The notes under the pieces are model-generated. The model made no database searches, was not told the origin of the DNA, and saw nothing but the letters and a program-made list of their open reading frames with translations. A DNA stretch of 32,673 nt from a virus: IMG/VR virus record IMGVR_UViG_3300046387_001273, positions 1-32,673 of that record; one strand, 5' to 3'. This document shows positions 6,485 through 32,211 of this stretch, piece after piece. Numbering within the stretch: position 1 is the first letter of the stretch; every line of letters begins with the position of its first letter. A program made the position numbers and the translations under genes.

Positions 6485-6815
6485 AATTCCAGAGAAATTA
6501 CTGGAAGAGGCCAAGCAATTTTCTATAGAAAATAATCATCAAGAGTCTTGTGGGTTATTTTTATATGACAAAAATACTCTTGAGGTTAGTGATTTTATTA
6601 AGCTTGATAATTTAAGTGCTAGCCCTAAGAAAACTTTTGTTATAAACCCAGCTTATCTGGTGATGGATAATATTTACTGTATATTTCATTCTCACTTAAA
6701 TATTTCCGAAAAACCTTCCACTTCGGATATAGAGAATTCATTGAGTTTAGGTATTTCATTTTTAATATATAGTCTGAAAACAGATTGTTTTTGTTTTTAT
6801 GAAATTAAAGTGTAA
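6474..6815 (+). CDS. JAMM/MPN-domain tail assembly peptidase (gpK-like, single domain)
   Basis: A 113-residue JAB1/MPN metalloprotease-like protein corresponding to the N-terminal half of lambda gpK. The full JAMM signature is present: Glu24 in QESCG, His72-Ser-His74, then x7, Ser82, x2 and Asp85. These would bind and activate a zinc-bound water. Lambda gpK-type proteins normally also carry an NlpC/P60 cell-wall hydrolase domain. Here the reading frame ends right after the MPN fold, so that half is missing. The start given is TTG at 6474, 11 bases inside the gpL-like gene. No ATG exists upstream of the catalytic Glu, so a non-ATG start (TTG, or ATT a few codons on) is required. It lies between gpL-like and gpI-gpJ-like genes, as in lambda. 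Confidence 0.82.
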   Translation: MKDKIPEKLLEEAKQFSIENNHQESCGLFLYDKNTLEVSDFIKLDNLSASPKKTFVINPAYLVMDNIYCIFHSHLNISEKPSTSDIENSLSLGISFLIYSLKTDCFCFYEIKV

Positions 6816-6820
6816 TATTT
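6807..6820 (+). promoter_or_regulatory. Candidate phage promoter motif, AAAGTGTAATATTT
   Basis: The 12-mer AAAGTGTAATAT overlaps the stop codon of the JAMM gene and lies 19 bases before the I-J gene. The same 12-mer recurs at 27205 just before another gene, and shorter forms occur at 28712 and, on the minus strand, at 32194. If TGTAAT acts as a -10 element, the transcript would start near 6823 and keep the Shine-Dalgarno-like AAGG at 6826-6829 (9 bases before the ATG). There is no clear -35. This is the only place in the tail block with a real gap and an AAGG before the start. Confidence 0.4.
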
Positions 6821-6838
6821 AAATTAAGGTTTAAGGTA

Positions 6839-9800
6839 ATGAAAAAGGTTCGTCTTTATGGAGAATTAGGCAAGAAATTCAACTCATCATGGGAGTTGAA
6901 CGTTTCGACTATACAAGAAGCGTTGTCTGCTATAGAGGCGAATTCTTCGGGTTTTTTTGAACATACTGTCAGAGAGCATGTTAAGGGTAATAAGTACATA
7001 ATTCTATTAAAAGACCCTTTGAAAGTTGAATCAGAAAATGATGCTGTAGATAGTTTAATTACTAAAAACAATCTAAACTCGGAGATAAAAAGTGACGAGA
7101 TTCATATTTTACCGGTGCCCAAGGGTGGGGCAGTTGCTAGTACGGTTATTGGTGGTTTTTGGGTGAATATGATAGGAAAAGGAGTACTTGCTACAGTTTT
7201 AACTGTTGCAACTTATGTAGCGATTGCTGTTGCTATATCATTTATAACTCAAGCTTTATTTAAGCCTCCTGCTCCTCCTAAACCTGGCACAAAAGTATCT
7301 TCCAAATCTTTATTGCTTGCTGGACAAAGAAATCGTCAGGCCCAAGGAATTCCTGTTCCTTTAGGTTATGGATTGCTTAAGATAGGCTCTGCTAATATTG
7401 ATGCGAAAGTTAGTACATTTAATTTAAAAAGGAACTCGAAATCTAAATCTAGTGTTTTAGAATCTTATTCAACTACAGAATATATAGATTTGCTGTGTGA
7501 GGGTCCGATAGCTGGACTTGTGGATAAAAATGGTAACTTATTAACCACCACTGATATTAGAGAAGGAATATATTTAAATAATGTGCAGATTAAAAATACT
7601 GTTTCCAGTGGAGAAATAGAGAGTTTTAATTATGTTTTAAATGAAGATGACGAGCTGCCTAAATTAAAAAAAGGTTTGAGCTCTGACTCTGATGCATTAT
7701 CTAGTAATATTTCCTACACTATTCAATATGGAACTCAGTTGTATGGGCCAGGACCTTATTTAGGTGGAACTGCTAAGTCTGTATATAATAATTTTGAATC
7801 TGCGATAAAAAAACAGGCTTTCATTTTCTCTCACGCTATAACCGATAGAAATGTTAGTAAAATAACGATTCAATTTGCAGTTAACATGATGCAGATGAAT
7901 AAAGATCCTGGAGACACATTAAGTGACTCTATTAGATTTGTTATTTTTTACACTAAAAACGGAAAAAGAATTAATATACTTGATCCTAGCAGCGATATAA
8001 ATTCAAATGATATTCATTATCTTGAAGGTACGCCTAATTCTGATGAAGTTAATGGAAAGAAAATAACAAAAGGGCTGCAAAAAATACAAGTGGGGGATAA
8101 TTATTTTTTTATGATACAAGGCTTAGCAACTTCATTTTATGAATTTTCTATATCTGTAAAGTATGATCCCGGTATTCTTTTCGTTGATAACTCTGAGCAA
8201 TTAAATTTTTCAGTTGTAAAACTTACTTCGGAATTCGATCAATCCGTAGATAGCTCTGGTTCGGTCAGTTATGATAATCCTAATGGAAATAATTCTACTT
8301 TTCTTGGTCATGTTGGCGGTATAATGAGGCAAAAGTCTATTAAAATTCCTTATATTCAGGAATCTATAGAAGAAAAGGTTATTTATCCACATACGGCTGC
8401 TGTTAAGATAAAATTTGATAGTAAGAATTTTAATAATATTCCTGTTAGGTCTTATCATATAAAAATGAAAAAAATTCTTGTCCCCTCCAATTATGAGCCG
8501 GAGTCAAGAACATATAATGGGCCTTGGAACGGTTTGTTTGCAGGACAAGGAGATGGAGAATCTGTGTTTTCTATACCTGATGAAAAACGAGTTTGGAGTA
8601 ATAATCCGGCTTGGGTCTTTTATGATTTACTGACTAATTATAGATATGGGTTAGGTAAATATGGAGTTGAGGATTTGATGGTTGATAAGTGGCAGTTGTA
8701 TAAAATAGCTAAGTATTGTGATGAACTTGTTGAAACTAATTACCCTGTAGAAACTACAAATAGATTGCCGCTTGCTTTTACTACCGAAAATGTTTTGGAT
8801 CAAAATTCTCATGAAAATAGGTTAAGGAGATATAAAAACCCTCCTGGAGCTTTTTATATTAAAATAAAATTAGACCAGTTTAGACACCCTGATAGATCTA
8901 GTAATGAAAGTGGAGACTTTATACCTTTTTCTTATACTGAAGGAGATTTCCTTAAAGACTTTGGAGATAGAAATCAGTTTAAGGGTAAGAAAATTGCATT
9001 TTTTATTCATAAACATAATTATACCGACGATCAGATATTACCTTCTAATAATGTGCAGTCCGCTTTAGCTAAAGACTCTGTTACGAGAAAAGGTGAATAT
9101 GATATCGAGGAAAGATTTATAGTTGATTCTCAAATAACAAATGGGGAGATGTTAGTTTTAGTAACCGGTCCGACCTTCGCAAGTAACAGTTCTTCATACA
9201 AAAACGCAGATGCAAATATAACTATTGGTGCATGCGCCACCCAACTTAACCACTCTATTGTTGAGCCGAGGTTTGAATCAAATTTGTATCTAACCGAGCA
9301 GTCTGAGGCAATAAACGCATTAAATTCATTAGCTTCATTATTTAGAGGTATGGTGACATATACTGCGGGTAAGATTTCTGTAGTTCAAGATTCAAAAAAA
9401 ACTCCTATAATGTTATTTAATAATTCAAACGTAAGGAAAAAAGAGGGGTTTTCTTATTCTGGTTTCGCGAAAAACAAAAAAGTAACTGCAAGTTTGGTCA
9501 GATTTAATAATAAAGAAAGGAATTATAAGCCAGATGTAGTTTACGAAGAGGACGCTGCTGCAATGCAAATTTATGGATATATAGAAAAGGAAACTATGGG
9601 TATGGGTATAACTTCTCGAAGTATGGCTAGAAGGTTAGCTAAATGGGTATTAGCTTCATCTAATTTAGAGTCTGAAAAAATTCAATTCGTTACAGGGTCT
9701 GAGGGTTCGTTTCTTTTTCCTGGTTCATTGTTTGAAGTTTCTGACGAAAATAGATCTGGCGATTCTACGAGTGGAAGGATTTTGAATTTGTTTTTTAAAA

Positions 9801-11581
9801 GTAAATATACTGATAGTCAGGGGCAAATTCAGGAAAAAGATAAATTAAGTATTTTAGTAGACAAGGATTTGACTAATTTGCCTAGCATAAGAAATGTTGA
9901 AATTGTTATCAACGTAGGCTTGGATAATGAAAAATATGAAACTATAAACCAAAGAGCTAAAGTAGAAAAAAGTCAAGAAGATCAAGATGTAGACATAGAT
10001 TCTATTTATTCTCCGCAAATACTTAGATTTGAAGGTCGAGTTTTTGTTGATGAAGAGTTAGACGAAAAAGGGCCTCAGGGACAAAAAACTTTAATAACTG
10101 ATTTAGATTTAAGGATGAGTTTTGGTTTAGATTTGGGGACAAATACTATAAAAATTTATAAGCATGGATTGAAAGATGGCGATCGAGTTAGGTTTTCATC
10201 TTTAGGTTTATTGCCATCTGGTTTAAATGTAGATAAGAGAGGGGCAAATGCCTATTTTGTAGTAAATTCTACAAGAAATACCTTTAAAGTTTCTGAGCAA
10301 GAAAATGGATCAGAAGTTAATATAATTGACAGCGGTAAAGATTATTTTCTTAATGAAGGTGGAGAGCATTTTGTTTGTGTGGAAAGTGTAGGTCAGTCTA
10401 TTTCCCCTGTGACTTTATTAGCGTTTAAACAACTGGAAATCGGTACTCCATTTTCATTAAATGGTTTATTTGCTACTAGCGGTTCTCGCGGACAAGACTC
10501 ATCTAACGTAGGTGTACTAAATAATATTTTTGTGGATAAACCCGGTAATCCCGAAAAAAATAAATTGTATGAATCTAGTTTGTTTGGAACATTAATTGAT
10601 GTAGGTGACGACTGGTTTTATACTTTTAGTTTCGGTTGGGTATATTTAGGCCAACTAACAGGGCAGCCTAATACTGGAGAGGAAGGTTTTTGGTTTTGGT
10701 TGACAAATGTGGGATGGGCGTGGACTAATTATGATATATCTGAAATTTCTAACTCCCCGAATAAAAGAGTTGGTTGGTGGTATTTAGATTTAAGAGATAA
10801 GTCAATGTGGGCTGCAGTAATTTACGAGCAAAATAAACCTGATCCCGTTAAGCTATATGTGTATGATAATGTTGATGGTTATTCAGTTGGTGAATCATAT
10901 AAATTGGGCGATAAGGAATTTGATATTGTAGATGTGAGTGAAAAATATATAGGACTTAAATTGACTTCAGGAGATAATAGTACTGATACACCAGGTGAAA
11001 TCCCTGAAGAATTGTCGGGGAACTCGTATAGTTCTTCGAATCCGGGCTATAATGAATGTGAAATTTTTTCTATAGAAAAAAAATCTCAAGATCTATCTGT
11101 GCAAAATAAAAATTCTATAATTATTAAGTTGATTGATAACCATGGCGTTGATCTATTTGCAAATAGAAATATAAGTATTAAAAATTTTAATTCTTCTGAG
11201 CAGGATTTAGATTCACAAATAAATAAACAATGGAATACAATTTATGTTGATGCTAATACAATTGAGTTGATCGATTCTCATGAAGTATTTAATTCAATTG
11301 ATTCTGCTTCAATAGTAGATAAGGGTGAAATATTTTTTACTGAAGATATTAATATTAAAACCTCGAGAATTTTTCAAACACAATTATTTAGGACTCTTGG
11401 GGTTAAAGAGCTTGATAATAATCAATTCGAGGTTCAGGGCATAGAGTATAGCCAGAGTAAATTTGATATGGTTGATAAAGATGCCTCTATACAATTACCT
11501 TTAATGCCGATACCTCCTCAGGCTAATATGAGTCTACCTGAAGCTCCTGAGGATTTAATTCTAACAGATTTAAGCGTATAA
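6839..11581 (+). CDS. gpI-gpJ fusion: tail tip assembly and receptor-binding baseplate hub protein
   Basis: A 1580-residue fusion of lambda-type gpI and gpJ. Residues 1-100 form the gpI beta-grasp (ubiquitin-like) domain, starting VRLYGELGKKF and ending IHILPVPKGG. A hydrophobic stretch (about 101-143) follows, then the gpI C-terminal signature IPVPLGYGLLKIGSANI. J begins near residue 214 with EYIDLLCEGPIAGLV and continues with the diagnostic NNPAWVFYDLLTNYRYGLG near 589 and the hub domains after it. In lambda, I and J are separate genes. A Trp-rich module at about 1258-1326 (DWFYTFSFGWVYL ... GFWFWLTNVGWAWTN ... GWWYLDL) is extra. The frame stops after LPEAPEDLILTDLSV, the first strand of a fibronectin III domain that continues in the next gene (TAATG junction). 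J forms the tail tip and contacts the receptor. Confidence 0.87.
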   Translation: MKKVRLYGELGKKFNSSWELNVSTIQEALSAIEANSSGFFEHTVREHVKGNKYIILLKDPLKVESENDAVDSLITKNNLNSEIKSDEIHILPVPKGGAVASTVIGGFWVNMIGKGVLATVLTVATYVAIAVAISFITQALFKPPAPPKPGTKVSSKSLLLAGQRNRQAQGIPVPLGYGLLKIGSANIDAKVSTFNLKRNSKSKSSVLESYSTTEYIDLLCEGPIAGLVDKNGNLLTTTDIREGIYLNNVQIKNTVSSGEIESFNYVLNEDDELPKLKKGLSSDSDALSSNISYTIQYGTQLYGPGPYLGGTAKSVYNNFESAIKKQAFIFSHAITDRNVSKITIQFAVNMMQMNKDPGDTLSDSIRFVIFYTKNGKRINILDPSSDINSNDIHYLEGTPNSDEVNGKKITKGLQKIQVGDNYFFMIQGLATSFYEFSISVKYDPGILFVDNSEQLNFSVVKLTSEFDQSVDSSGSVSYDNPNGNNSTFLGHVGGIMRQKSIKIPYIQESIEEKVIYPHTAAVKIKFDSKNFNNIPVRSYHIKMKKILVPSNYEPESRTYNGPWNGLFAGQGDGESVFSIPDEKRVWSNNPAWVFYDLLTNYRYGLGKYGVEDLMVDKWQLYKIAKYCDELVETNYPVETTNRLPLAFTTENVLDQNSHENRLRRYKNPPGAFYIKIKLDQFRHPDRSSNESGDFIPFSYTEGDFLKDFGDRNQFKGKKIAFFIHKHNYTDDQILPSNNVQSALAKDSVTRKGEYDIEERFIVDSQITNGEMLVLVTGPTFASNSSSYKNADANITIGACATQLNHSIVEPRFESNLYLTEQSEAINALNSLASLFRGMVTYTAGKISVVQDSKKTPIMLFNNSNVRKKEGFSYSGFAKNKKVTASLVRFNNKERNYKPDVVYEEDAAAMQIYGYIEKETMGMGITSRSMARRLAKWVLASSNLESEKIQFVTGSEGSFLFPGSLFEVSDENRSGDSTSGRILNLFFKSKYTDSQGQIQEKDKLSILVDKDLTNLPSIRNVEIVINVGLDNEKYETINQRAKVEKSQEDQDVDIDSIYSPQILRFEGRVFVDEELDEKGPQGQKTLITDLDLRMSFGLDLGTNTIKIYKHGLKDGDRVRFSSLGLLPSGLNVDKRGANAYFVVNSTRNTFKVSEQENGSEVNIIDSGKDYFLNEGGEHFVCVESVGQSISPVTLLAFKQLEIGTPFSLNGLFATSGSRGQDSSNVGVLNNIFVDKPGNPEKNKLYESSLFGTLIDVGDDWFYTFSFGWVYLGQLTGQPNTGEEGFWFWLTNVGWAWTNYDISEISNSPNKRVGWWYLDLRDKSMWAAVIYEQNKPDPVKLYVYDNVDGYSVGESYKLGDKEFDIVDVSEKYIGLKLTSGDNSTDTPGEIPEELSGNSYSSSNPGYNECEIFSIEKKSQDLSVQNKNSIIIKLIDNHGVDLFANRNISIKNFNSSEQDLDSQINKQWNTIYVDANTIELIDSHEVFNSIDSASIVDKGEIFFTEDINIKTSRIFQTQLFRTLGVKELDNNQFEVQGIEYSQSKFDMVDKDASIQLPLMPIPPQANMSLPEAPEDLILTDLSV

Positions 11582-19819: not shown

Positions 19820-19820
19820 T

Positions 19821-22873: not shown

Positions 22874-23445
22874 TAAAAGGGGGCATCATCGCCTTCTGCG
22901 GAAGATTCTTTTTGTGTTTGTTTGCTTGGTTTGTATTTTTCCATCTTTTTGGCTTCTTCTATTTTTCGATGTTTATATAAAGATTTTAAATAAAATTTAA
23001 AGAACTCTATTAAATTTTCGACTTCTCCGGGTTCGATGGGTATCCTGAAAACTTGACTTCCGTTTCTTGTGAATGTTATTCCGAATGCGGGTAAGGTAAT
23101 CCATTTGTCATTATCTCCATCTTTCACTTTAGTCTTCTTATCCCAGGGCACGCATTTAATTGATGTTTTATTTTCTTCAAAAGCATGAAAAGAGGAAAAT
23201 TCATTTCTATTCTTAAATGCACTAATTACTCCTCCGATTTCAAATTCGGTAAATTTTAAATTTATTTTTTTATCGGGATCGCTTGCGTTTCCGGAAAAGT
23301 TTCCTGTTTTTTTATTATCGTCCCAGCTGAATTGCTGGATTGCGTTGACGTATACTACGGGTTCTTTGTTTCTATTATTACCTATAGAAAAGTTAAAAGC
23401 GCAGCCCGTGTTTTTACTGTTTGGTTTATATAGAGATATTGACAT
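22873..23445 (-). CDS. Putative ssDNA-binding protein with an SSB-like acidic tail
   Basis: A 190-residue protein, probably coating single-stranded phage DNA. The C-terminus is SSAEGDDAPF after a Lys/Gln-rich linker. An acidic tip ending Pro-Phe is the partner-binding tail of bacterial and phage SSBs. The body (about residues 20-150) is a string of strands with FEIGGVISAFKNRNEFSSFH and ITFTRNGSQVFRIPIEPGEVENL followed by a helix. This resembles Whirly/PC4-like ssDNA-binding folds more than the OB fold. A separate OB-type SSB is encoded at 25416, so the phage seems to have two. The gene has its own likely promoter at 23462-23489 and a short leader without a Shine-Dalgarno. The tail is directly visible; the fold is inferred. 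Confidence 0.55.
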   Translation of the reverse strand: MSISLYKPNSKNTGCAFNFSIGNNRNKEPVVYVNAIQQFSWDDNKKTGNFSGNASDPDKKINLKFTEFEIGGVISAFKNRNEFSSFHAFEENKTSIKCVPWDKKTKVKDGDNDKWITLPAFGITFTRNGSQVFRIPIEPGEVENLIEFFKFYLKSLYKHRKIEEAKKMEKYKPSKQTQKESSAEGDDAPF

Positions 23446-23461
23446 AATTGTTTTTTTATAG

Positions 23462-23489
23462 ATTATACCTCTATGCCTTTATACTTCAA
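23462..23489 (-). promoter_or_regulatory. Sigma70-type promoter for the ssDNA-binding protein operon
   Basis: On the minus strand TTGAAG (23484-23489) and a perfect TATAAT (23462-23467) are 16 bases apart. The predicted start is near 23455, leaving a leader of about 10 A-rich bases with no Shine-Dalgarno before the ATG at 23445. The -35 overlaps the stop codon of the helix-turn-helix gene. Confidence 0.6.
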
Positions 23490-23806
23490 GTTTTATCTAA
23501 AATTTTACCTCTTATTATCATATTACCTTTGTTTTGCACCATGGTTTTTAATTGGGTACCTGTCTTGTTACAAGTCCTGAATCTACGTATGTGTCCTGCG
23601 CTTGATAATCTAGATAGGGAAGCTGATACCTTCCCATGAGACATTCCTCCAAGATCGTCTCCGATTTTTTTATTTGAAAAAAATATAGGTTCTCCGTGAC
23701 TAGCCTTAGTAAGTAAGTAGGAGTATATCAATAAATCATTTCCTATCAACTTTCCTTCAACTACATCATCTTGGATAACTAATGGCATTTGTATAAATTT
23801 CTTCAT
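23486..23806 (-). CDS. Winged helix-turn-helix DNA-binding protein
   Basis: A 106-residue protein built around one winged-helix domain of the HTH_36 / replication-initiator N-terminal type. LLIYSYLLTKAS is the first helix, IFFSNKKIGDDLGGMSHGKVSASLSRL gives helices two and three, and SAGHIRRFR is the wing. It is the first gene of the leftward operon and sits next to an AT-rich, palindromic, divergently transcribed region, so it may act on its own control region or at an origin there. No enzymatic domain follows. The start chosen is the ATG at 23806. A second in-frame ATG six codons on has no Shine-Dalgarno either, and the promoter at 23815-23843 fits the first ATG as a near-leaderless start. 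Repressor, activator and initiator roles cannot be told apart. Confidence 0.62.
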   Translation of the reverse strand: MKKFIQMPLVIQDDVVEGKLIGNDLLIYSYLLTKASHGEPIFFSNKKIGDDLGGMSHGKVSASLSRLSSAGHIRRFRTCNKTGTQLKTMVQNKGNMIIRGKILDKT

Positions 23807-23814
23807 CGATAATA

Positions 23815-23843
23815 ACTATATACAGAAATAAATAAATTGTCAA
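23815..23843 (-). promoter_or_regulatory. Strong sigma70-type promoter giving a near-leaderless transcript
   Basis: On the minus strand a consensus TTGACA (23838-23843) is followed after 17 bases by TATAGT (23815-23820). Only 8 bases separate the -10 from the ATG at 23806, so the predicted start (near 23808) leaves a leader of about two bases. It should drive the leftward early operon. Confidence 0.75.
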
Positions 23844-23859
23844 GCTATATCCAAAAAAG

Positions 23860-23888: not shown

Positions 23889-23946
23889 TTGTTAATAATA
23901 TACGTATACATAAATATAATTAATTATTAATATATAAATATAAGAA
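23889..23946. other. AT-rich tract with short palindromes, possible replication origin or unwinding element
   Basis: This intergenic tract is almost pure A/T and contains two perfect palindromes: TATACGTATA (23899-23908) and ATAATTAATTAT (23916-23927). It lies between divergent operons that carry replication-type genes, directly beside the half-site cluster. An origin, or simply an AT-rich upstream element for the rightward promoter, would both fit. Nothing here encodes a protein. Confidence 0.35.
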
Positions 23947-23975
23947 TTGACATTTAGTTGAAATGGTGATAGAAT
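23947..23975 (+). promoter_or_regulatory. Strong sigma70-type promoter whose predicted start is the ATG itself
   Basis: Consensus TTGACA (23947-23952), a 17-base spacer and TAGAAT (23970-23975). The A of the ATG at 23982 lies seven bases past the -10, the usual start position, so the mRNA should be leaderless. It should drive the 23982-27201 operon. Confidence 0.78.
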
Positions 23976-23981
23976 GCTTGA

Positions 23982-24278
23982 ATGAAATTTTTAGACTTAA
24001 GTGAAGGGAAGTTTTATAGAATAAAATGCTCTGATTGGTCGGTTATCATTCAGGCAAATAACGAGAATGAGGCGTGTGTTGACGCACTTGTTGAAATGTT
24101 AGAGAGAAGAGGTAAGAACTTAAAACTATCTTCTGTGATGATATCCGAAGAATTACAAGCTGATGTTATGAGCGAAAATTACGACGAAAGCGTATCTTAT
24201 CACTCTGTATCCAAAATGCTTACTGATGCAGGGCAACATGAATTATCCTCTAGTATGAGGGAAATATTCGGGTCATGA
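23982..24278 (+). CDS. Small conserved-looking phage protein, function unknown
   Basis: A 98-residue protein that I cannot assign. Residues 1-30 look like a small beta-rich start (MKFLDLSEGKFYRIKCSDWS), followed by a helix with NENEACVDALVEMLERRGK and a second half predicted to be two helices. There is one cysteine in each of the first two segments, and no membrane segment or catalytic motif. It is the promoter-proximal gene of the rightward operon, ahead of nucleotide metabolism and transcription genes. The start is fixed by the promoter at 23947-23975, because the predicted first transcribed base is the A of the ATG and no alternative in-frame start lies upstream. The 3' end overlaps the next gene by ATGA. 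Confidence 0.75.
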   Translation: MKFLDLSEGKFYRIKCSDWSVIIQANNENEACVDALVEMLERRGKNLKLSSVMISEELQADVMSENYDESVSYHSVSKMLTDAGQHELSSSMREIFGS

Positions 24279-24826
24279 AATCTAACATAATAGGAATAAG
24301 CGGATTGGCTAGATGTGGAAAAGATAGTTTTTTTAATATAGCCTCAAGTATACTAAGTAGTCAGAATATCAGAACAAGAAGATTTGCTTTCGCGGATTGC
24401 TTAAAAAGCGAGTGCAATGAAATACTTGAAAAATATACAGGTATATCAGCGTTTACGGAGAAAACCTCAGAAAAAGAAATAATTAGACCCCTACTGGTAA
24501 CTTACGGCACACATATAAGAAGAAAAATAAATCCGAACTGCTGGATAGATAAAATTAATGACGAAGTAAAATCATTCTCGATCAATGGAGTTTCATTCAT
24601 TACAGATGTTAGGTTTGAAAACGAAATAGACTGGGTGAGGGATATAGGAGGTAAATCGATACATATAACAAGAGAAGGTATATCTCCACCTAATAAAGAA
24701 GAAGCTGAAAACGACCCAATCCTATTAAATAAATCTGATATAAAATTCACTTGGAAAAACTTTGAAGAAACTAATAATTTAATAATATCGAAAATAGTTA
24801 AAGAAGTCATACAATCTATTTTATGA
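24275..24826 (+). CDS. Deoxynucleoside monophosphate kinase (T4 gp1-like)
   Basis: A 183-residue P-loop kinase that would convert dNMPs to dNDPs for phage DNA synthesis. The Walker A motif is GLARCGKDS (residues 10-18), in the GxxxxGKDS form typical of phage dNMP kinases. It is followed by FAFADCLK (about 38-45), a YGTHIRRKINPNCW block (about 77-90) typical of the family, and the Walker B-like VSFITDVRFENE with the Arg-containing FENE loop. The length is a little below T4 gp1. It overlaps the genes on both sides by ATGA, so it is translationally coupled to the small upstream protein and to the sigma factor. T4 gp1 also phosphorylates modified dCMP, but whether this one does cannot be read from sequence. 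Confidence 0.82.
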   Translation: MKSNIIGISGLARCGKDSFFNIASSILSSQNIRTRRFAFADCLKSECNEILEKYTGISAFTEKTSEKEIIRPLLVTYGTHIRRKINPNCWIDKINDEVKSFSINGVSFITDVRFENEIDWVRDIGGKSIHITREGISPPNKEEAENDPILLNKSDIKFTWKNFEETNNLIISKIVKEVIQSIL

Positions 24827-25419
24827 ATAAAGATATAGAAGATATCGAATTAATTAATAACTTACAGTCTCAAATTAATCAAAGAGAAAGTTTAGAGTTA
24901 CTAATCGAAAGGCATAGCGGTATATACCTAGATATGGTTAATTGTTACGCCAGCCCCAATAATCCCTACATAGATTATAACGAATTAATTAATGATAAGG
25001 AATACAAGATATACAACGCGGCAATTAAATTTGATAGCACTAAAGGAGCCAAGTTTAGCACTTACCTAGGAAATGAAACTAAGTGGATGTGCCTAAATAC
25101 TTATAATCGAAACAAAAGAAGACCTGTTTGGCATAGTGATCATATAGAAAATATGCCAAAAGATGATTCGCTTGAATGCGATTCCATTTCAGAAAGCATA
25201 AAACAAGACTTATTTAATAAAGTACTAAACGCAATATCCGAACATCCCGACACACGGGTTGAGAAAATTTTTAAAATGAGATATATTATAGGTCACAAAA
25301 ACAAAGTTATGCCATGGAAACAGATTGGTGACGAAATGAATCTAAGCATACAGGGGTGCATCAACATACACAACTCTGCAATTAAATCATTCCAAAATCA
25401 ATTAGAAAAAGAAGTATGA
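24823..25419 (+). CDS. Phage-encoded RNA polymerase sigma factor
   Basis: A 198-residue sigma70-family protein with region 2 and region 4 only, the compact form of phage late sigma factors. Region 2 covers about residues 27-95: LLIERHSGIYLDMVNCY, a DYNELI helix, IYNAAIKFDSTKGAKFSTYL (the most conserved sigma stretch) and a Trp/aromatic-rich end. Region 4 covers about 146-195: IFKMRYIIGHKNKVMPWKQIGDEM then LSIQGCINIHNSAI, a helix-turn-helix that would contact the -35 or an activator. Regions 1.1 and 3 are missing. It would redirect host RNA polymerase to phage promoters, a likely target being the GTGTA motif found before four genes here. It is coupled by ATGA overlaps to dNMP kinase and SSB, an early or middle position suited to switching on later genes. 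Confidence 0.78.
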   Translation: MNKDIEDIELINNLQSQINQRESLELLIERHSGIYLDMVNCYASPNNPYIDYNELINDKEYKIYNAAIKFDSTKGAKFSTYLGNETKWMCLNTYNRNKRRPVWHSDHIENMPKDDSLECDSISESIKQDLFNKVLNAISEHPDTRVEKIFKMRYIIGHKNKVMPWKQIGDEMNLSIQGCINIHNSAIKSFQNQLEKEV

Positions 25420-25799
25420 ATAAATTTATAGGACTAGGTAATTTAACTAAAGACCCTGTTTTTAAAAAACTAAACAATGGAAATAATGTCTGTGAATTTT
25501 CTCTTGCTATAAATAATAAAGCAAATAACTCAGTTTTTTATATAGACGCAGAATCATGGGGAAATGTAGCAGAAAATTGTAACAGATTCCTCTCTAAAGG
25601 TCGCAAAGTTCTTATAGAAGGAAAGCTTTTGTGCAGCAATTGGAAATCAAAAAATGGAGAAAATAGAAGCAAAATATATTGCCGAGCCGACTTAGTAACT
25701 TTTCTTGACAACTCAAATCACGATAATCAACAAAAAAATATCGAGCAAAAAGCTAAAGAAATAATAGAAGATGACCAATTTGCAGATATTCCGTTTTAA
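25416..25799 (+). CDS. ssb: Single-stranded DNA-binding protein (OB-fold SSB)
   Basis: A 127-residue SSB that coats single-stranded DNA during replication and recombination. The N-terminus MNKFIGLGNLTKDPVFKK is the classic SSB opening, followed by CEFSLAINNK, ESWGNVAENCNRFLSKGRKVLIEG (with the Trp and hydrophobic positions of the family) and a strand before the linker. The C-terminal acidic tip is EDDQFADIPF, the docking site for partner proteins. The length is short compared with E. coli SSB (178 residues) because the linker is brief. It is coupled by an ATGA overlap to the sigma factor gene and lies two bases before the glycosyltransferase gene. A second ssDNA-binding protein with a similar tail is encoded at 22873-23445. 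Confidence 0.9.
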   Translation: MNKFIGLGNLTKDPVFKKLNNGNNVCEFSLAINNKANNSVFYIDAESWGNVAENCNRFLSKGRKVLIEGKLLCSNWKSKNGENRSKIYCRADLVTFLDNSNHDNQQKNIEQKAKEIIEDDQFADIPF

Positions 25800-25801
25800 T
25801 T

Positions 25802-26857: not shown

Positions 26858-27201
26858 TGCCTTTATATACATACGAACACCCTGAAACAGAAGAAACCGT
26901 AGATGTCATTCAAGGAATGAATGACGAACATATTTACGTAGACAAAGAAGGAATTAAATGGAATAGAGTATGGAATATACCTCAAGCAAATATAGATTCA
27001 GATACAGATCCTTTTGATAACCAAGCTTTTCTACAAAAAACATCAAACCAAAAAGTTTCATATGGAGACCTTATAGATCAAAGTAGAGAGTTGAGTCAAA
27101 AAAGAAAAGATAAATTAGGATACGATCCAGTTCAAAAAAAATACTTTAAAGAGTATAAGAAAAAAAGAAATGGTATAAAACACCATCTAGATACAGACTA
27201 A
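26857..27201 (+). CDS. FmdB-like small protein lacking the zinc-binding cysteines
   Basis: A 114-residue protein. The N-terminal 50 residues follow the FmdB/zinc-ribbon layout: MPLYTYEHPETEETVDVIQG replaces the 'MPxYeYrC..Cg..fe..q.' start, and KWNRVWNIPQ replaces the 'lkRvfs.p' end. All the cysteines that would hold zinc are absent, so the ribbon must be held differently or has lost its role. The rest is a charged helix (about 65-95) and a Lys/Arg-rich C-terminus (KEYKKKRNGIKHHL) that could bind nucleic acid. It overlaps the glycosyltransferase gene by TAATG and ends the operon just before the GTGTA-type motif. No specific function is known to me. Confidence 0.55.
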   Translation: MPLYTYEHPETEETVDVIQGMNDEHIYVDKEGIKWNRVWNIPQANIDSDTDPFDNQAFLQKTSNQKVSYGDLIDQSRELSQKRKDKLGYDPVQKKYFKEYKKKRNGIKHHLDTD

Positions 27202-27204
27202 AAA

Positions 27205-27216
27205 AAAGTGTAATAT
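27205..27216 (+). promoter_or_regulatory. Candidate phage promoter motif, AAAGTGTAATAT, leaderless geometry
   Basis: This is a second exact copy of the 12-mer at 6807. The ATG at 27223 is 8 bases past TGTAAT, so use of TGTAAT (or TAATAT) as a -10 would start the transcript on or within two bases of the ATG. There is no -35 consensus, as expected if a phage sigma factor or activator is needed. It sits in the 21-base gap after the FmdB-like gene. Confidence 0.5.
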
Positions 27217-27222
27217 CTTCGT

Positions 27223-28161
27223 ATGGCAAGCGAAGATTATAAAAACAATCCGTTATATACGGACATTACAAAACTAGATCACCTTTCTCCACAGCCAACT
27301 TTTTCATATAAGTGGAACATCCAAAGCGGAAGATGGGAACCTTCAGAGGACTCTAGATCTGAAGAAGTAGAGAATTTATTAATAAAACTTAATGAATCCA
27401 ACTCTGGCATGCTTTCTAGTTCAGAGCAGTTGTTATCAGGAATAAGAGAGATTATAGATAACCAAGAAGAAAGTAATATCTTCAACTCTACAACTATAAC
27501 AAAAACTGTTAATCAAAAAATAGAAGAAGACTTTATTTTATTGGAAAATATTCCAGATCAAACTAGAGGGTTATCAACACCCGAAAGCTGTTATGGTCAA
27601 AATAAATTTATAATGAATGATATATTTAATGTTCATTTTGAAAACGCTAGAACAAACCCTGAATCTCCAGAGACAGGACATCCAGAATATTTTATTCACG
27701 AGGAAACTATAGATACAGGCAGATGTATAGAGTCCAACGGGGTATTTCATACAGATACTAATTTTAGCCTAAGACAAGAAAACTCACTAGCTAGTAAAAT
27801 AAATTCATACGAGTTACTCGACTTCTCTGAATTATATCAATCAGGTTTAGCGGAGAGCGTGGTTATATTCAATGAATCCCCCTACCCTATACAATTTCAC
27901 ACAATAGATAAATCATATGATCCGGATCTCGACGAAGAAAATAACTTAATATATTTATACCCAGATGGAGCGGTACAAATCAACACAGATGAAGCTAAAA
28001 ATATATATGTAAAAAGACCGCATACTATATCAGGATATACAATAAAATATTCTATCAATTATAAAGGAGGATCGGTAGGCAAATTATCTTATGATAATGA
28101 TTATATTTATATAAAAACTAGTGACAATCAATTAAAAAGATTAGTTTTATCAGCATATTAA
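27223..28161 (+). CDS. Virion structural/fibre protein with YxYxxTxDNxxKR tail
   Basis: A 312-residue protein with no enzymatic motif. The N-terminal 100 residues are acidic and helix-prone, with a TTITKTVNQKIEED patch. The middle is beta-rich. The C-terminus reads GKLSYDNDYIYIKTSDNQLKR followed by LVLSAY. The gene after this one ends the same way (GQIAYDEHYMYVCTKDNEWKR), a C-terminal element common in virion proteins of marine phages. Together with its position ahead of the fibre gene this suggests a structural role in the capsid decoration or fibre system. The start is ATG with the GTGTA motif immediately upstream and no Shine-Dalgarno. Confidence 0.55.
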   Translation: MASEDYKNNPLYTDITKLDHLSPQPTFSYKWNIQSGRWEPSEDSRSEEVENLLIKLNESNSGMLSSSEQLLSGIREIIDNQEESNIFNSTTITKTVNQKIEEDFILLENIPDQTRGLSTPESCYGQNKFIMNDIFNVHFENARTNPESPETGHPEYFIHEETIDTGRCIESNGVFHTDTNFSLRQENSLASKINSYELLDFSELYQSGLAESVVIFNESPYPIQFHTIDKSYDPDLDEENNLIYLYPDGAVQINTDEAKNIYVKRPHTISGYTIKYSINYKGGSVGKLSYDNDYIYIKTSDNQLKRLVLSAY

Positions 28162-28167
28162 TACCAA

Positions 28168-28707
28168 ATGCAATTTTTTGACACACAAAAAGCTATAAAA
28201 AGAGTTGGACCGACAAAGTATGTTGTTGGCCCTAATCCATTAAATCCTCAATTAACACTAGAAGATACATCTCTTTTTGTTGAAGAAGTTAATGCTGTAA
28301 CAGGTTTATTTATTAGCGGAGTTAATTTCATAGATTATATCACTGGAGACAAAAATCATTTCCTTGAATCTAGATATGAATTAGAAGAAGCTTTCGTAGA
28401 AGATGCTAATGGAGATTTAACGCCTTCTTTATCAAACTATATCTCAGATTCGATGTGGATATTAAGAAACGAAGGAGATCTTGAATTAAGAGCTAATCAT
28501 TGGAGATATAATATGGGCCCAGAAGCATTCACTGAAGATATATCTATAGGAGTAGAACGAAATGAGCATCAAGATACTATCGACATTCCAGCGCCCAAAA
28601 CATCTAATTCATTAGGCTATAAAGGTCAAATAGCTTACGACGAACATTATATGTACGTATGTACTAAAGACAACGAATGGAAAAGATCTGTTTTATCTGA
28701 TTTTTAA
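28168..28707 (+). CDS. Virion structural/fibre protein, C-terminally related to the preceding gene
   Basis: A 179-residue protein. Its last 30 residues match those of the preceding gene at the pattern G-x-(L/I)-(S/A)-YD-x2-Y-x-Y-x2-T-x-DN-x2-KR-x-VLS. The remainder (IKRVGPTKYVVGPNPLN, then an acidic loop, then WRYNMGPEAFTEDIS) is beta-rich and unassigned. The shared C-terminus is likely a small folding or attachment module, so the two proteins probably act at the same site on the particle. The gene begins six bases after the previous stop without a Shine-Dalgarno and is probably co-transcribed with it. Confidence 0.55.
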   Translation: MQFFDTQKAIKRVGPTKYVVGPNPLNPQLTLEDTSLFVEEVNAVTGLFISGVNFIDYITGDKNHFLESRYELEEAFVEDANGDLTPSLSNYISDSMWILRNEGDLELRANHWRYNMGPEAFTEDISIGVERNEHQDTIDIPAPKTSNSLGYKGQIAYDEHYMYVCTKDNEWKRSVLSDF

Positions 28708-28711
28708 AAAT

Positions 28712-28726
28712 AAAGTGTAGTAATAT
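28712..28726 (+). promoter_or_regulatory. Candidate phage promoter motif, AAAGTGTAGTAATAT
   Basis: A variant of the 27205 motif with two extra bases (GT) before AATAT. GTGTA lies 9 bases before the ATG at 28729, against 10 at 27205, so the leaderless distance is kept. It is preceded by an A-rich run as at 27205. Confidence 0.45.
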
Positions 28727-28728
28727 TA

Positions 28729-31314
28729 ATGGCGACAAGAAATTTAGTACCAAGAAATAGCGGAGAAGGAAGCATTGGTAAAATATCAAAAGCCTGGGCG
28801 ACAGGGGTTTTTGATAATCTATATATTAGAGGACTCGAATTCTCTATGGACCAACCCCTCAGCTCTTCGGATAATGTTGAATTCGCTAGTGGAAACTTTG
28901 TAAATGGACTGACACTAGATGGTGTTGATGTGCAGAAATTAGGAACTTCAATACTAGAAGTCCAATCTGGAGCAGCTGAATTCTGTTTTTTTTCCGATGT
29001 ATTAAATAACGCAGGTATTGAAGAAAAATTTTTTTACAATACCCCCAATACCGAAACATACCTTTCCGGGGTTACAGTAGATACAGCCTCAGACTTAAAA
29101 GTTTATTTCGAGTGGGACGGACCAAATGAATCCTATATGGGTACAGCAACAATAAATGGCGAAGAGATTCCAAGATCTAATATTAATCAAATTGGCGATG
29201 GAACTAGAAGGTTTAGAGGATACATAGATGGTATAAACGCCGCAGGATTAACTAATATAACCGGAGAAGCAAATGGAAGAACTTCCTTATTACCAATAAC
29301 TGAATTAGGAGGAGGACCTACCCCAGTAAATATACTAATAGACGAAATCCAAAATGCTACACCCAAAAATGGACAAAGATTAGGTACTTCTCACTTAAAG
29401 CAAGGAGATTCTATTAATATATATGTAGACTTCGATAGGAATGATGTCGACCTTATTAAGATTTATGACTTTGGTTTAGCGGAAGAAATAAATTATACAA
29501 ACTATAATCTACAAAGTATAGGGTCAAACTATAGAGCAACTATACCAGTTACCGTATCAAATAGAAATGGAGCTTTATCGGTTGCCGTTCAAGCTATAGA
29601 TAATTTTGGGAGTACTGGAGAATTAAAAGAATCCTCAGATTTTAACCATTTAAGCGGAACAAGAAACTTGGATCAAACTTATCCACAAATACAAGTTTCA
29701 GACCCATTGTCCTACAACGGAAGACAAGATGGGCTAAGAGAAGGGGAAAGTGTTAATTTTAATAATAATATTTCAAATTGGTCAAACACAACGGATTCTG
29801 TAGAATACACAGAGTTAACCTCAGACATCTCAATAGAAAACCCTAACTTATTTCAATTATCAAAAAAAGTAAATTACGTAAATGGAGTTTACAATAATCA
29901 AGATAATTTAGAAATTTTTGCTATAAGAAGTAGTAATGGAGCTACAGATAAAGAATACGTTAATATTAAAATCGCAAATGGCCCGGTTATAGTTGAAGCA
30001 TCCATGGATTCATTAGCTTCATTATCCACTTCACCTCACATAATTGGAACCTCTGAAGTTAAGTCTGGTGATACGGTAAATGCCTCAATAGAAATAAATG
30101 GTAAAGGAGTTGACTTAAATCAGATTCAAATATCTGTAAAAAATAATGGAATCAGCGACGGCTCACAAACCTCCTATTCTTCAAATTACTCAAAAAGCAC
30201 GTTAACAAATGGCAACTTCAGATTTTTAGTGCCAATAAAAGTTTTTGGTCCGCTTGGATCAAATTCTAGAGACGGAGATCAATCAGCAACATTTACAGTT
30301 AAAAATAATTTCGGAACTTTAAGTGATTCATTTACAACTTTAGATACAGCGAAAGTACATAATGCCACATTTCCGTCTATACAAATTCAAGATGTATCGT
30401 ATCCATCAAATCAAGATGCTATTAAATCATCTGAGTTTGCAGAAGTTGAAAATTTAATCTCAAACTTTGACCAAATTTCTTATTCATCTCCAAACAATCA
30501 ATTAAACATAGATAATCCTAGTCAACAAGAAGGTTTAAAGATAGCTAGATATTTAAGCGGAGACTACAATATAGATATAGATGGGGGTCAAAATAATTTT
30601 AAGATCTCTGCGACCCGCTCATCAAATGGCGCCGTAACAGAAAAATTTAAAATAGTAAACATTGCAAACGCCCCTTTAACCATAAATATTAACAATTTAA
30701 ACTCTAAAATAAAAACTTCTACCTCTCCTATTAGTGACAACTTTAATCTGACTACTAACCAGCTGATGCTAGAATCTCCTATTTTAAGTCTAGACCCAAA
30801 TCAAACAAACCCTTCAAATTTAACACAAACCGCCTCAGGCGTGGGGAAATTTAGTAACGCCTACAGAATTACAGTTGAAGATTCCAACACTAAAGGGACT
30901 TTTAATTGGCAAGTTTCTGCAACAAATCTAGCAGGAATTACTACAACTGCAATAACAACGAATCCAAATTATACACTAGAAGGTTTTAATTCTAGAACAA
31001 TTATAGCTTCTCCTAATAGCATAGGGGCTGGATTAGCCCCTATAGGAACAACCGTAACAAATACTTCAAATATATCGTTCGAAAACGTATCTGAAGGAGG
31101 AACTGCTGTAAACGGAGGAACTATTTACACATATCAAAATTATTCAGATGGAATACAATTAGATAATTCTTATGATTTAAATAATAAATTTACTGTATGT
31201 GATTCAAACGGACTCACAGATAGTAATGGAGATCATGTTTTTAATTTAGACAAGTTAAATAGATCAGCAAATAGTTCTACGGCAAACCCAGCAACTTTTA
31301 TTGTTTCAGAATAA
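28729..31314 (+). CDS. Long tail/whisker fibre protein with repeated Ig-like units
   Basis: An 861-residue structural protein. The N-terminus MATRNLVPRNSGEGSIGKIS, followed by KAWATGVFDNLYIRGL, is the particle-anchoring start common in fibre and appendage proteins of marine phages. Three related units of about 220-230 residues begin near residues 198, 418 and 648. Each opens with a strand like GPVIVEASMDSLASLSTSP and continues with a GVDLxxI strand, or what remains of it. The two boundary segments TYPQIQVSDPLSYN (about 317) and TFPSIQIQDVSYPS (about 547) also correspond. The third unit diverges toward the C-terminus, which ends SSTANPATFIVSE and could be the distal tip. There is no S74 domain. 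The stop codon abuts the stop of the convergent gene with no gap. Confidence 0.65.
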   Translation: MATRNLVPRNSGEGSIGKISKAWATGVFDNLYIRGLEFSMDQPLSSSDNVEFASGNFVNGLTLDGVDVQKLGTSILEVQSGAAEFCFFSDVLNNAGIEEKFFYNTPNTETYLSGVTVDTASDLKVYFEWDGPNESYMGTATINGEEIPRSNINQIGDGTRRFRGYIDGINAAGLTNITGEANGRTSLLPITELGGGPTPVNILIDEIQNATPKNGQRLGTSHLKQGDSINIYVDFDRNDVDLIKIYDFGLAEEINYTNYNLQSIGSNYRATIPVTVSNRNGALSVAVQAIDNFGSTGELKESSDFNHLSGTRNLDQTYPQIQVSDPLSYNGRQDGLREGESVNFNNNISNWSNTTDSVEYTELTSDISIENPNLFQLSKKVNYVNGVYNNQDNLEIFAIRSSNGATDKEYVNIKIANGPVIVEASMDSLASLSTSPHIIGTSEVKSGDTVNASIEINGKGVDLNQIQISVKNNGISDGSQTSYSSNYSKSTLTNGNFRFLVPIKVFGPLGSNSRDGDQSATFTVKNNFGTLSDSFTTLDTAKVHNATFPSIQIQDVSYPSNQDAIKSSEFAEVENLISNFDQISYSSPNNQLNIDNPSQQEGLKIARYLSGDYNIDIDGGQNNFKISATRSSNGAVTEKFKIVNIANAPLTININNLNSKIKTSTSPISDNFNLTTNQLMLESPILSLDPNQTNPSNLTQTASGVGKFSNAYRITVEDSNTKGTFNWQVSATNLAGITTTAITTNPNYTLEGFNSRTIIASPNSIGAGLAPIGTTVTNTSNISFENVSEGGTAVNGGTIYTYQNYSDGIQLDNSYDLNNKFTVCDSNGLTDSNGDHVFNLDKLNRSANSSTANPATFIVSE
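31021..31043 (+). repeat. Strong hairpin inside the fibre gene
   Basis: ATAGGGGCT (31021-31029) and AGCCCCTAT (31035-31043) form a perfect 9-bp stem with loop GGATT. It is GC-rich against a very AT-rich background. No U-run follows, so it is not an intrinsic terminator. It codes for residues near SIGAGLAPIG of the fibre and could affect mRNA decay or translation. Confidence 0.5.
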
Positions 31315-31503
31315 TTAAACTGAATCAAAATCAGCTTTAGTACAAAATTTTGTTAATTTAGTTCCATCCTCATCTACAGCTTTTAAAGAATATCTTATAG
31401 ATAATTTTCCTGCTTTAGTAGTCTTTTCATATGTTTTTTTAGAAACTCTTTCTTCAGGTATTAATACCTTTTGTTTTTTCTTTACATTATAAAACTCTAT
31501 CAT
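31315..31503 (-). CDS. Small basic phage protein, function unknown
   Basis: A 62-residue Lys-rich protein starting MIEFYNVKKKQKVLIPEERV. It has a predicted beta-sheet core (LSIRYSLKAVDEDGTKL) and one cysteine near the end. I cannot assign a family, though short proteins with a similar VEFYNVKKR-type start are frequent in marine phages. Its own near-perfect promoter (31512-31539) reads out of the end of the upstream gene, so it is probably expressed separately and strongly. The ATG lies 8 bases past the -10 and no Shine-Dalgarno is present. Its stop touches the stop of the convergent fibre gene (TAATTA). Confidence 0.7.
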   Translation of the reverse strand: MIEFYNVKKKQKVLIPEERVSKKTYEKTTKAGKLSIRYSLKAVDEDGTKLTKFCTKADFDSV

Positions 31504-31511
31504 AGTTTATG

Positions 31512-31539
31512 ATTATAAAGGCTTTTGATTTTTTGTCAA
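31512..31539 (-). promoter_or_regulatory. Perfect-consensus sigma70 promoter, near-leaderless
   Basis: On the minus strand TTGACA (31534-31539) and TATAAT (31512-31517), both 6/6 matches to consensus, are 16 bases apart. The predicted start (about 31505) leaves a leader of two bases before the ATG at 31503. Both elements lie around the 3' end of the J-domain-like gene, whose stop is at 31513. Confidence 0.8.
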
Positions 31540-32193
31540 TAATTCAAATATAGATTTCTTAATATCAGGATTTCCCTTGTGCCACTTATACATTATATCA
31601 TTCCTAATATGATGTATCTGTTTTTGCATTTTTTGTATCTCTTTCTTTAATTGGCTTATAAATTCTGGAGATATATTTTTAATACCTATATTTAGCTCTA
31701 AGGCTACCTTTAGTATTTTGCGAAAATCTCCGTTTTGTTTTCCCTCTATAACCTCATTATACATATCTAGTCTTTCATTCAATTCGTCTTTTGGTAAGTT
31801 TTTATTTAAATCTGGATGAGTTTTTTTAACAACTTCTCGAAATAAATCATTCATCTCATCGTTAGATAACTCAGTAGATCCATCTCTTTCATCAGGAACG
31901 GACTGAAATGGGTCTTGTATTTTTTTATTATTACAGTAATCAAGCATTTTACCTATAAAATCTCTTCTAATTTCATCAAATTCTTCAACTAAGTCTTCAT
32001 ATTCCATATTCAAATATATAGCTTTATGCCTTAATTTATTAAATATTTTCTTTAACTTTTTTTGAGCTTGAGGTTCAGAATATCTTGTTGGTAAATTTTC
32101 TTTAATAAACTTTTTATTGCCAGGCTCATATTTGCCCAGAGGATGCTTCTCTCTCTCCGAAAATAAATCATTAAACAAATCTTTTTCATTCAT
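31513..32193 (-). CDS. DnaJ-like (J-domain) phage protein
   Basis: A 226-residue, highly charged and mostly helical protein. Residues about 112-155 resemble a J domain: LFREVVKKTHPDLNKNL carries the His-Pro-Asp triad at 126-128, preceded by a basic helix and followed by a helix with ERLDMYNEVIEG. In known J proteins HPD stimulates the ATPase of Hsp70/DnaK, so this may recruit host chaperone to virion assembly. The usual Gly/Phe and zinc regions of DnaJ are absent. Flanking segments are coiled-coil-like (about 40-75 and 180-205). The start is ATG at 32193 with the GTGTA motif nine bases upstream, immediately after a terminator. The isolated J-like helix pair is short, so a fortuitous HPD remains possible. 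Confidence 0.6.
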   Translation of the reverse strand: MNEKDLFNDLFSEREKHPLGKYEPGNKKFIKENLPTRYSEPQAQKKLKKIFNKLRHKAIYLNMEYEDLVEEFDEIRRDFIGKMLDYCNNKKIQDPFQSVPDERDGSTELSNDEMNDLFREVVKKTHPDLNKNLPKDELNERLDMYNEVIEGKQNGDFRKILKVALELNIGIKNISPEFISQLKKEIQKMQKQIHHIRNDIMYKWHKGNPDIKKSIFELLTKNQKPL

Positions 32194-32211
32194 ATATTAT
32201 TTTACACAAAA
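32194..32211 (-). promoter_or_regulatory. Candidate phage promoter motif on the minus strand (GTGTA, 9 bases, ATG)
   Basis: Reading toward the J-domain-like gene, GTGTA is followed by AAATAATAT and then the ATG. GTGTA, an AATAT further on and the 9-base distance to the ATG match the motif at 28712. It overlaps the U-run of the terminator, so one transcript would end where the next begins. Confidence 0.42.

Follow-up and report, generated by a model that had tools for sequence, protein, structure and literature searches.

A start-proximal GTGTA element as a candidate late promoter in a group of sigma factor-encoding phages

Introduction

Does a five-base word that recurs ahead of a few genes in a phage contig mark a promoter class of its own, and could the sigma factor encoded by the same contig be the protein that reads it? 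The question is raised by IMG/VR record IMGVR_UViG_3300046387_001273 (32,673 bp, 33% GC), which we treated as a fragment and whose full length we call the window. Within it lie lambda-type tail genes, a pair of divergent early operons and one sigma-factor gene, at 24823. An original prediction had pointed to a motif containing GTGTA in front of four genes or operons and had proposed a late regulon with its own leaderless promoters, paired with the phage sigma factor. After comparing the window with its relatives, we consider it likely that GTGTA and a short A/T-rich stretch form the -10 element of a late promoter specific to the phage, one that has no apparent -35 element and is read by an early-made phage sigma factor, with a hairpin acting as a gate at the junction between early and late genes.

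Position and conservation of the GTGTA element

The motif AAAGTGTAATAT occurs exactly at 6807 and 27205, as had been claimed, and at no other position in the window, and AAAGTGTA is found at 28712 and 10383 as well. The first element (6807-6818, plus strand; GTGTA at 6810-6814) stands 24 nucleotides (nt) before the ATG of 6839, a gap that contains two AAGG runs (6826-6829 and 6833-6836) resembling Shine-Dalgarno (SD) sequences. The second (27205-27216, plus strand; GTGTA at 27208-27212) lies 10 nt before the ATG at 27223, and the third (28712-28726, plus strand; GTGTA at 28715-28719), which is the variant AAAGTGTAGTAATAT, lies 9 nt before the ATG at 28729. The minus-strand copy, GTGTAAAATAATAT, exists, but its coordinates are 32207-32194 rather than 32211-32194, a small slip; its GTGTA (32207-32203) is 9 nt before the ATG at 32193, the start of gene 31513. 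Three of the four sites are therefore 9-10 nt from an ATG, as first described.

Could a short A/T-rich word simply recur by chance in a genome of 33% GC? Counts of longer words leave some room for this: the four copies of AAAGTGTA in the window, against 1.56 expected, are a mild enrichment that 9 of 100 shuffles reach and that is unimpressive alone. A loose GTGTA-N0-3-AATAT pattern, counted over 26 whole relative contigs, gave 34 matches against 25 for its reversed control and was set aside as uninformative, the AATAT part not being conserved. Position is a different matter: GTGTA lies at most 45 nt upstream of 4 of 23 window gene starts, against 0.35 expected from its own frequency (24 copies, both strands). 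Copies within coding DNA, such as that at 10386, are ordinary background.

Relatives were collected via the sigma protein: 23 were found by sequence (a 24th match, short and weak, was unused), and a profile search with the same protein gave 70 loci at 38-76% identity. For each of the 24 window genes we looked for orthologues in the relatives and compared their upstream regions, with gene starts taken from a simple caller of the longest open reading frame that accepts ATG only; orthologues whose alignment begins inside the gene were scored as not evaluable. Three contigs nearly identical to the window (G024-G026) were excluded from all family counts, the 20-contig GTGTA count also leaves out G007, G009 and G010, and 5 of 180 GTGTA hits, which lay less than 6 nt from the start, were removed before family clustering. 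One relative, G005 (184,324 bp), was added late and enters the 24-contig counts, not the per-gene orthologue test. It appears to be a nearly complete, circularly permuted genome, because its 27223 orthologue sits near one end (1938, minus strand) and its 28729 and 28168 orthologues near the opposite end (182588 and 183265, minus strand).

In the orthologue test GTGTA was nearly all-or-none from gene to gene. Within 45 nt of the start it is kept in 11 of 11 evaluable orthologues of 6839 (19 aligned rows), in 13 of 13 of 27223 (17 rows) and in 13 of 13 of 28729, where every copy stands at 9 nt; at 31513 it is present in 2 of 2 under the strict start rule and in 8 of 8 relatives with starts read by eye. 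It precedes 2 of 19 orthologues of 5405 and none of the 304 evaluable orthologues of the other 19 window genes, among which 2391 and 11581 had few that could be evaluated (1 of 17 and 2 of 19). Outside this test, the 11581 family member of G006 has GTGTA at 10 nt, and a separate count for that family is 3 of 43. The compared proteins are mostly 34-70% identical (the exception is the 31513 protein of G002, at 100%), so the retention of GTGTA is not simply recent copying.

Is the motif commoner before genes than elsewhere, as the original prediction would have it? Over 20 contigs, 150 of 880 GTGTA copies sit 0-40 nt upstream of a start, 50 of them at exactly 9 nt, with intergenic DNA at 5.3%; nine other 5-mers in the same count gave 9 to 36, except for the A/T-rich GTATA at 116. 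The spacing from GTGTA to ATG over 23 contigs has its mode at 9 nt (59 of 180 hits), with 17 hits at 10 nt. Counted by protein family (24 contigs, 1486 genes), GTGTA stands 8-13 nt before the ATG in 51 of 486 families against a composition-matched mean of 7.0 for the 29 other permutations of its letters, the largest of which, AGTGT at 30, overlaps the motif. A scan of unselected, position-specific words placed two 5-mers at the top, GTGTA at 9 nt in 22 families (2.0 expected) and TTGAC at 30 nt in 18 (1.7 expected), and found the 6-mer TATAAT at 5 nt in 13 families against 1.9. In 50-kb stretches of unrelated phages, GTGTA was seen at 0 of 249 genes in four phages and at 1 of 59 in a fifth, NCTB, where the 60 nt ahead of the 28729 relative contain no GTGTA. 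Together, the permutation control and the per-gene conservation are overwhelming and already refute chance recurrence, which we regard as a negligible explanation. The original prediction would have fallen had the motif been no commoner before genes than elsewhere, and it clearly withstands that test.

The T4 late consensus TATAAATA was considered as a hidden consensus behind the motif and rejected: 11 of its 255 copies fall within 40 nt upstream of a start, against the 150 of 880 for GTGTA, and the invariant core is GTGTA.

Two putative promoter classes

A second kind of site is visible in the same genomes. The operon of the sigma gene is headed by a predicted early sigma70-type promoter, TTGACA-N17-TAGAAT (23947-23975, plus strand), 6 nt before the ATG at 23982, and a divergent one, TTGACA-N17-TATAGT (23815-23843, minus strand), stands 8 nt before the ATG at 23806. 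TTGAC occupies the -35 position in 20 of 20 orthologues of both 23982 and 23486, in 1 of 8 orthologues of 31315 and at none of the other window genes. Across the relatives, sigma70-type sites were scored as TTGACA with at most one mismatch, a spacer of 16-18 and a -10 with at most two mismatches. The -10 of such sites ends 4-10 nt before an ATG in 132 of 187 cases, most commonly at 6 nt, against 10.6 in shuffled sequence, and counted from the ATG its TA lies within about one base of where GTGTA has its own.

The two classes are nearly separate. Under a more permissive sigma70 rule, 169 of 1260 genes have GTGTA, 159 have a sigma70-type site and 20 have both, and the sigma70-type families 23982 (21 of 23 members), fam102 (10 of 10) and fam97 (6 of 6) have GTGTA in none. 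The block of G005 that we defined and judged to be early has GTGTA at 1 and sigma70-type sites at 20 of its 98 genes, compared with 21 and 9 of the remaining 128 (Fisher 2e-6).

Both classes look mostly leaderless, with a -10 too close to the start codon for a leader and no SD. The original prediction had tied leaderless genes to the motif: GTGTA genes do look leaderless, but so do the sigma70-type genes. SD-like words, found at 180 of 1261 genes overall, accompany 5 of 105 GTGTA hits at 6-13 nt, 1 of 17 at 14-19 nt and 31 of 53 at 20-45 nt, so the gap between GTGTA and ATG is usually too short for a leader, or else longer and often supplied with an SD. The predicted leaderless spacing of 9-10 nt is the mode across 23 contigs but not the rule for the 6839, tape-measure and 95-amino-acid (aa) families, whose gaps of 19-38 nt contain an SD-like AAGG.

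The strongly fixed distance to the ATG in many genes also invites the idea that GTGTA is a translation signal or ribosome-binding element and no promoter at all. The long gaps just described argue against it, since they hold throughout conserved families and have an SD-like sequence between GTGTA and ATG, and GTGTA is not found at operon-internal window genes. Moreover, its sites stand directly after terminators and in divergent pairs: in the window the T-run of an intrinsic terminator (32214-32233, minus strand) abuts the GTGTA element of 31513, an arrangement common to 8 of 8 relatives. Because GTGTA sites follow terminators and form head-to-head pairs, the element behaves as a promoter would, and a role in translation seems very improbable.

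What else belongs to this putative promoter? Over 58 families the element consists of GTGTA and roughly seven positions that lean towards A/T, and the sequence upstream is weakly biased to A/T as well. A -35 sought by word enrichment and by a family-weighted logo of the same families gave no clear word or position, although a variably spaced or very degenerate form could escape such a search; a faint TTACAC signal upstream probably comes from divergent GTGTA sites. With a transcript beginning on the A of the ATG, a GTGTA at 9 nt would have its last A at position -10.

The phage sigma factor

The description of 24823 (24823-25419, plus strand; 198 aa) as a two-region sigma factor is borne out by a match to phrog_351, RNA polymerase sigma factor (E 2.6e-8), by an 18-row alignment, and by the structural model with its fold matches. 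Sigma-2 spans residues 7-98 approximately and sigma-4 residues 121-198, with a low-confidence linker at 101-119 between them. The AlphaFold2 model (predicted local distance difference test, pLDDT, 82.5; predicted template modelling score, pTM, 0.52) has helices at 7-98 and 121-197 and good confidence within domains. Its best fold match is E. coli sigmaE (1or7, Z 10.7 over 167 residues), followed by sigmaE region 2 (4lup, Z 10.1) and region 4 (2h27, Z 9.7). Sigma-2 and sigma-4 joined by a short linker, with neither sigma-1.1 nor sigma-3, make up the group IV architecture, and in the model the protein is a two-domain sigma factor like those of the extracytoplasmic function (ECF) type. Profiles gave a fainter picture: Pfam Sigma70_r2 matches 17 of 18 family members at E up to 1 (best 6.8e-6), the window member scoring 12 bits against a cut-off of 24, and a profile search of solved structures was weak with an unrelated top match, so that the fold comparison is the clearer of the two. 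The sigma70-type promoter at 23947 heads the early rightward operon, in which 24823 comes third, so the factor would be expressed early.

GTGTA is probably recognised by this factor. The alternative is that the host primary sigma reads GTGTA as an extended -10-like promoter, perhaps after modification or with a phage co-activator, and that 24823 serves otherwise. The register speaks for such a reading, in that a GTGTA at 9 nt and a TATAAT ending at 5 nt have their TA at the same place, and for a -10 ending at 6 nt, the commonest kind, the two fall within one base of each other; the A/T-rich downstream part and the missing -35 likewise fit extended -10 promoters. However, the usual extended -10 consensus has TGn before TA, and in GTGTA the TG is one base closer. 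The phage also has an early, conserved sigma of its own whose -10-reading region departs from sigma70 in the alignment, and the five unrelated phages are almost without such sites. We therefore find recognition by the host sigma improbable and prefer the phage factor as the protein that reads GTGTA.

A tblastn search with the sigma factor over 50,697 named phage records gave no match at 1e-5. The only two relatives found in bacterial genome bins, L162 and L163, come from a Halobacteriovorax and a Flavobacteriaceae metagenome-assembled genome (MAG); because the bins disagree on the bacterium, these may be stray phage contigs.

A hairpin at the early-late junction

At 27201/27223 the early operon meets a GTGTA gene with no predicted terminator between them. 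Here a hairpin (27215-27237, plus strand) carries the start codon in its loop (27223-27229), between a 5' arm at 27215-27222 that GTGTA immediately precedes and a 3' arm at 27230-27237. Members of the 27223 family have their start codon within a stem of 5-9 bp directly after GTGTA; stems average 7.2 bp, compared with 5.0 in shuffles, and reach at least 6 bp in 15 of 17 members, the distant G021 having no hairpin of note. Loop-length changes spoiled the MAFFT alignment of this region, and covariation was therefore measured by swapping arms between family members (16 distinct sequences, after 3 of 19 rows were dropped as identical, and without G021). Arms paired with their own partners score 18.1, compared with 12.75 (sd 0.76) for permuted partners, a value that 0 of 20,000 permutations reach. 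The stem over the translation start is thus conserved by compensatory change, as in control of the T4 gene e type.

Held-out loci with sigma factors at least 59% identical gave the same picture, GTGTA and the hairpin being present together in 10 of 11, with six distinct arm pairs of which four are new. A 26857 homologue is also present in 34 loci that are more distant; GTGTA is missing from the next 140 nt in 33 of these, and one, L140, has a GTGTA unassigned to a start. There seems to be no early-late junction in these loci, because the frame that follows is often, by eye, similar to the early gene 22873.

By analogy with T4 gene e, the hairpin probably silences 27223 in read-through early mRNA. 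The predicted folding energy of the -30 to +30 region is -10.1 kcal/mol, against -0.8 for an RNA that starts at the ATG (means of 17). Might the hairpin instead stabilise the 5' end of the late mRNA, or bind a protein? A start 3-5 nt after GTGTA would keep most of it in the late mRNA, with the AUG displayed in the loop. The late start site is placed from spacing only, and the usual spacing puts it at or beyond the end of the 5' arm; the arms vary in sequence yet keep pairing, which argues against a sequence-specific protein site. A clear stem excess (+2.2) is, in addition, confined to the 27223 cluster among the 13 GTGTA clusters tested: mean stem lengths of the 12 others differ from shuffles by -1.2 to +1.2, the largest excesses being those of cluster 4 (5.9 against 4.7, n 10) and cluster 11 (6.0 against 4.85, n 3). 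A stabilising or protein-binding role is less likely on this evidence, and we favor repression of read-through translation.

Genes carrying the element

The genes behind the four sites had been labelled as virion or assembly genes, and this holds for two of them. Gene 6839 (6839-11581, plus strand) is a fusion of tail assembly protein gpI and central tail fibre protein gpJ, with matches to phrog_32 over residues 1-196 and to phrog_31 over residues 104-632. Gene 28729 (28729-31314, plus strand) encodes an 861-aa tail-associated protein that matches the 'tail sheath' family phrog_15433 in its C-terminal half (E 4e-52, residues 462-850). The label was not supported for 27223 (27223-28161, plus strand), the first GTGTA gene beyond the early operon, which is kept in synteny and followed by 28168-28707; its protein has no match in Pfam or PHROG. 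The 226-aa product of 31513 (31513-32193, minus strand) does have the HPD motif of the proposed J-domain, but its DnaJ similarity is weak, with matches below the Pfam cut-off (E 0.005-0.08) for it and two relatives.

Across the relatives, families with GTGTA include those of 27223 (16 of 16), 28729 (13 of 14), the tape measure (12 of 14), a 152-aa protein (10 of 13) and a 95-aa protein (9 of 11). In G005 the element precedes, among others, the tape measure, a protease-like protein (phrog_3677) and the gene directly after the terminase large subunit, and it lies at an untypical 5 nt before the predicted start of a ClpB/ClpC-like AAA+ ATPase (L112:1-2220, minus strand).

Several features of the neighbourhood deserve mention. 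The 31513-family terminator is strong, GC-rich and often accompanied by a second AAGAT/ATCTT stem upstream. Within the end of gene 31513, a perfect TTGACA-N16-TATAAT (31512-31539, minus strand) stands 8 nt before the start of 31503, nesting a sigma70-type gene behind a GTGTA gene. G002 shares the 31513 and 31315 proteins at 100% and 98% identity and the neighbouring 28729 protein at 64%, perhaps reflecting a recent exchange of the small cassette 31315-32193. Head-to-head GTGTA elements about 20 bp apart serve gene-family pairs (L087-L090, L098-L101, L050-L053, L105-L114) that are mostly without PHROG hits. The genes 22873 and 23486 are adjacent in the window (23445-23486); in G005, G008, G014 and G018 their orthologues are set apart by roughly 3 to 8 kb, filled with variable genes of which several are sugar- or glycosyltransferase-like by eye.

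Discussion

These observations fit together in a simple scheme. Early in infection, host sigma70 holoenzyme would read the TTGACA-N17-TATAAT promoters, including that at 23947, and the 23947 operon would yield the phage sigma factor. This factor would then guide RNA polymerase to the GTGTA sites ahead of the tail genes and others, making the switch from early to late expression. Most GTGTA transcripts would start at the AUG or within 2-3 nt of it, and those of three gene families about 10-29 nt upstream, where an SD-like sequence is present. At 27201/27223, the hairpin with the AUG in its loop would form only in read-through early RNA; the late 27223 transcript would start inside or after the 5' arm, form no hairpin and be translated.

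A number of points weigh against this scheme. The relatives were gathered through the sigma gene, so all sampled phages are sigma-bearing and the co-occurrence of motif and sigma factor follows from how the sample was drawn. As the sigma factor diverges, starts with GTGTA at 8-13 nt become less frequent, from 25 of 205 genes at 59% identity or more to 27 of 525 at 44-49% and 6 of 62 below 44%; 10 of 31 loci in the 44-49% range have none in their 11-21 kb, and the two MAG contigs have GTGTA starts at 2 of 18 and 0 of 19 genes. The conserved helix-turn-helix of sigma-4 is kept although no -35 is seen. Some of the hits at 20-45 nt in small families are probably chance. The permissive sigma70 rule also fires in 7 of 16 members of the 27223 family and 6 of 14 of the 28729 family, matches that we take as chance because the stricter TTGAC position test finds none among the evaluable orthologues there.

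The timing faces its own difficulties. A tail annotation is lacking for six of the nine GTGTA families that are best conserved, and a PHROG search of the 152-aa, 95-aa, fibre-like (fam103) and fam104 families gave no hit, so the label 'late' leans on the three tail-annotated families and on gene neighbourhood. GTGTA also precedes a ribonucleotide reductase-like gene, judged by eye, in the distant relatives G021-G023 and a kinase-like gene in G002, G005 and G022. As for the hairpin, the held-out locus L159 has GTGTA without it, and several of the other ten are near-duplicates. In the folding model the AUG is unpaired in the loop, so that repression is not obvious from pairing alone; with no SD here to be covered, we infer the inhibitory effect.

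If the scheme is right, the temporal expression plan of these phages, which we know solely as metagenomic contigs, becomes readable from sequence, with promoter type sorting many genes into two classes, and a testable sigma factor is paired with a five-base core promoter. It also points to at least one host group in which leaderless mRNA is translated well enough to make virion proteins. A broader claim would be that early and late programmes are both mostly leaderless, are switched by an ECF-like sigma reading a -10-only GTGTA, and include an SD-independent hairpin gate, an independent leaderless counterpart of the T4 lysozyme switch; this we put forward tentatively, as slightly less likely than not.

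Comparison with known systems

Among the open-access literature matches listed, no title or opening of an abstract describes the GTGTA motif. Short, phage-specific late consensus sequences are familiar from AR9 (AACA-6N-TA/G) and phiKZ (TATG), as summarised in PMC5312081. Those are read by phage multisubunit RNA polymerases, and AR9, with leaders of 26-491 nt, is not leaderless.

In its architecture the 24823 factor resembles the ECF (group IV) sigmas such as E. coli sigmaE, with sigma-2 and sigma-4, a linker of less than 50 residues and the fold match given above. ECF factors read one flipped base at the -10, according to PMC8103513, and the A of a GTGTA at 9 nt would occupy that position if transcription starts at the A of the ATG. 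Unlike those factors, ours is borne by a phage, would serve a regulon of phage genes and has no -35 that we could find.

The closest parallel in logic is T4. Its late promoters are described in PMC2988020 as read by a phage sigma and as short and -10-only, with an A/T-rich downstream part and no -35, giving transcripts of either polarity; the window likewise combines a phage-encoded sigma with a short, apparently -10-only promoter. The core here is GTGTA and not the 8-bp T4 TATA box, the putative GTGTA promoters look mostly leaderless, and the sigma factor keeps its sigma-4 domain, whereas T4 gp55 and gp33 are described in the same source as a split sigma. T4 late activation uses a sliding clamp and a co-activator, and a clamp-loader-like gene is present in the relative G014.

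For the T4 genes e, soc, 49 and I-TevI, section 29 of PMC3014915 describes read-through RNA silenced by a fold over the start and late RNA that lacks the 5' strand and is free. In both T4 gene e and 27223, early read-through RNA would fold over the start site. When we folded the T4 e region for comparison, the fold included its SD; 27223 has no SD, shows its AUG in the loop and looks leaderless. What is new here is the covarying AUG-loop hairpin after GTGTA, by our analysis what seems to be a T4-type hairpin for read-through silencing that arose independently, in a version that is leaderless and has no SD. Together, these comparisons suggest a system that would be T4-like in logic, with a phage sigma, a -10-only late promoter and an RNA gate like that of gene e, and unlike T4 in sequence, sigma architecture and leaderless layout.

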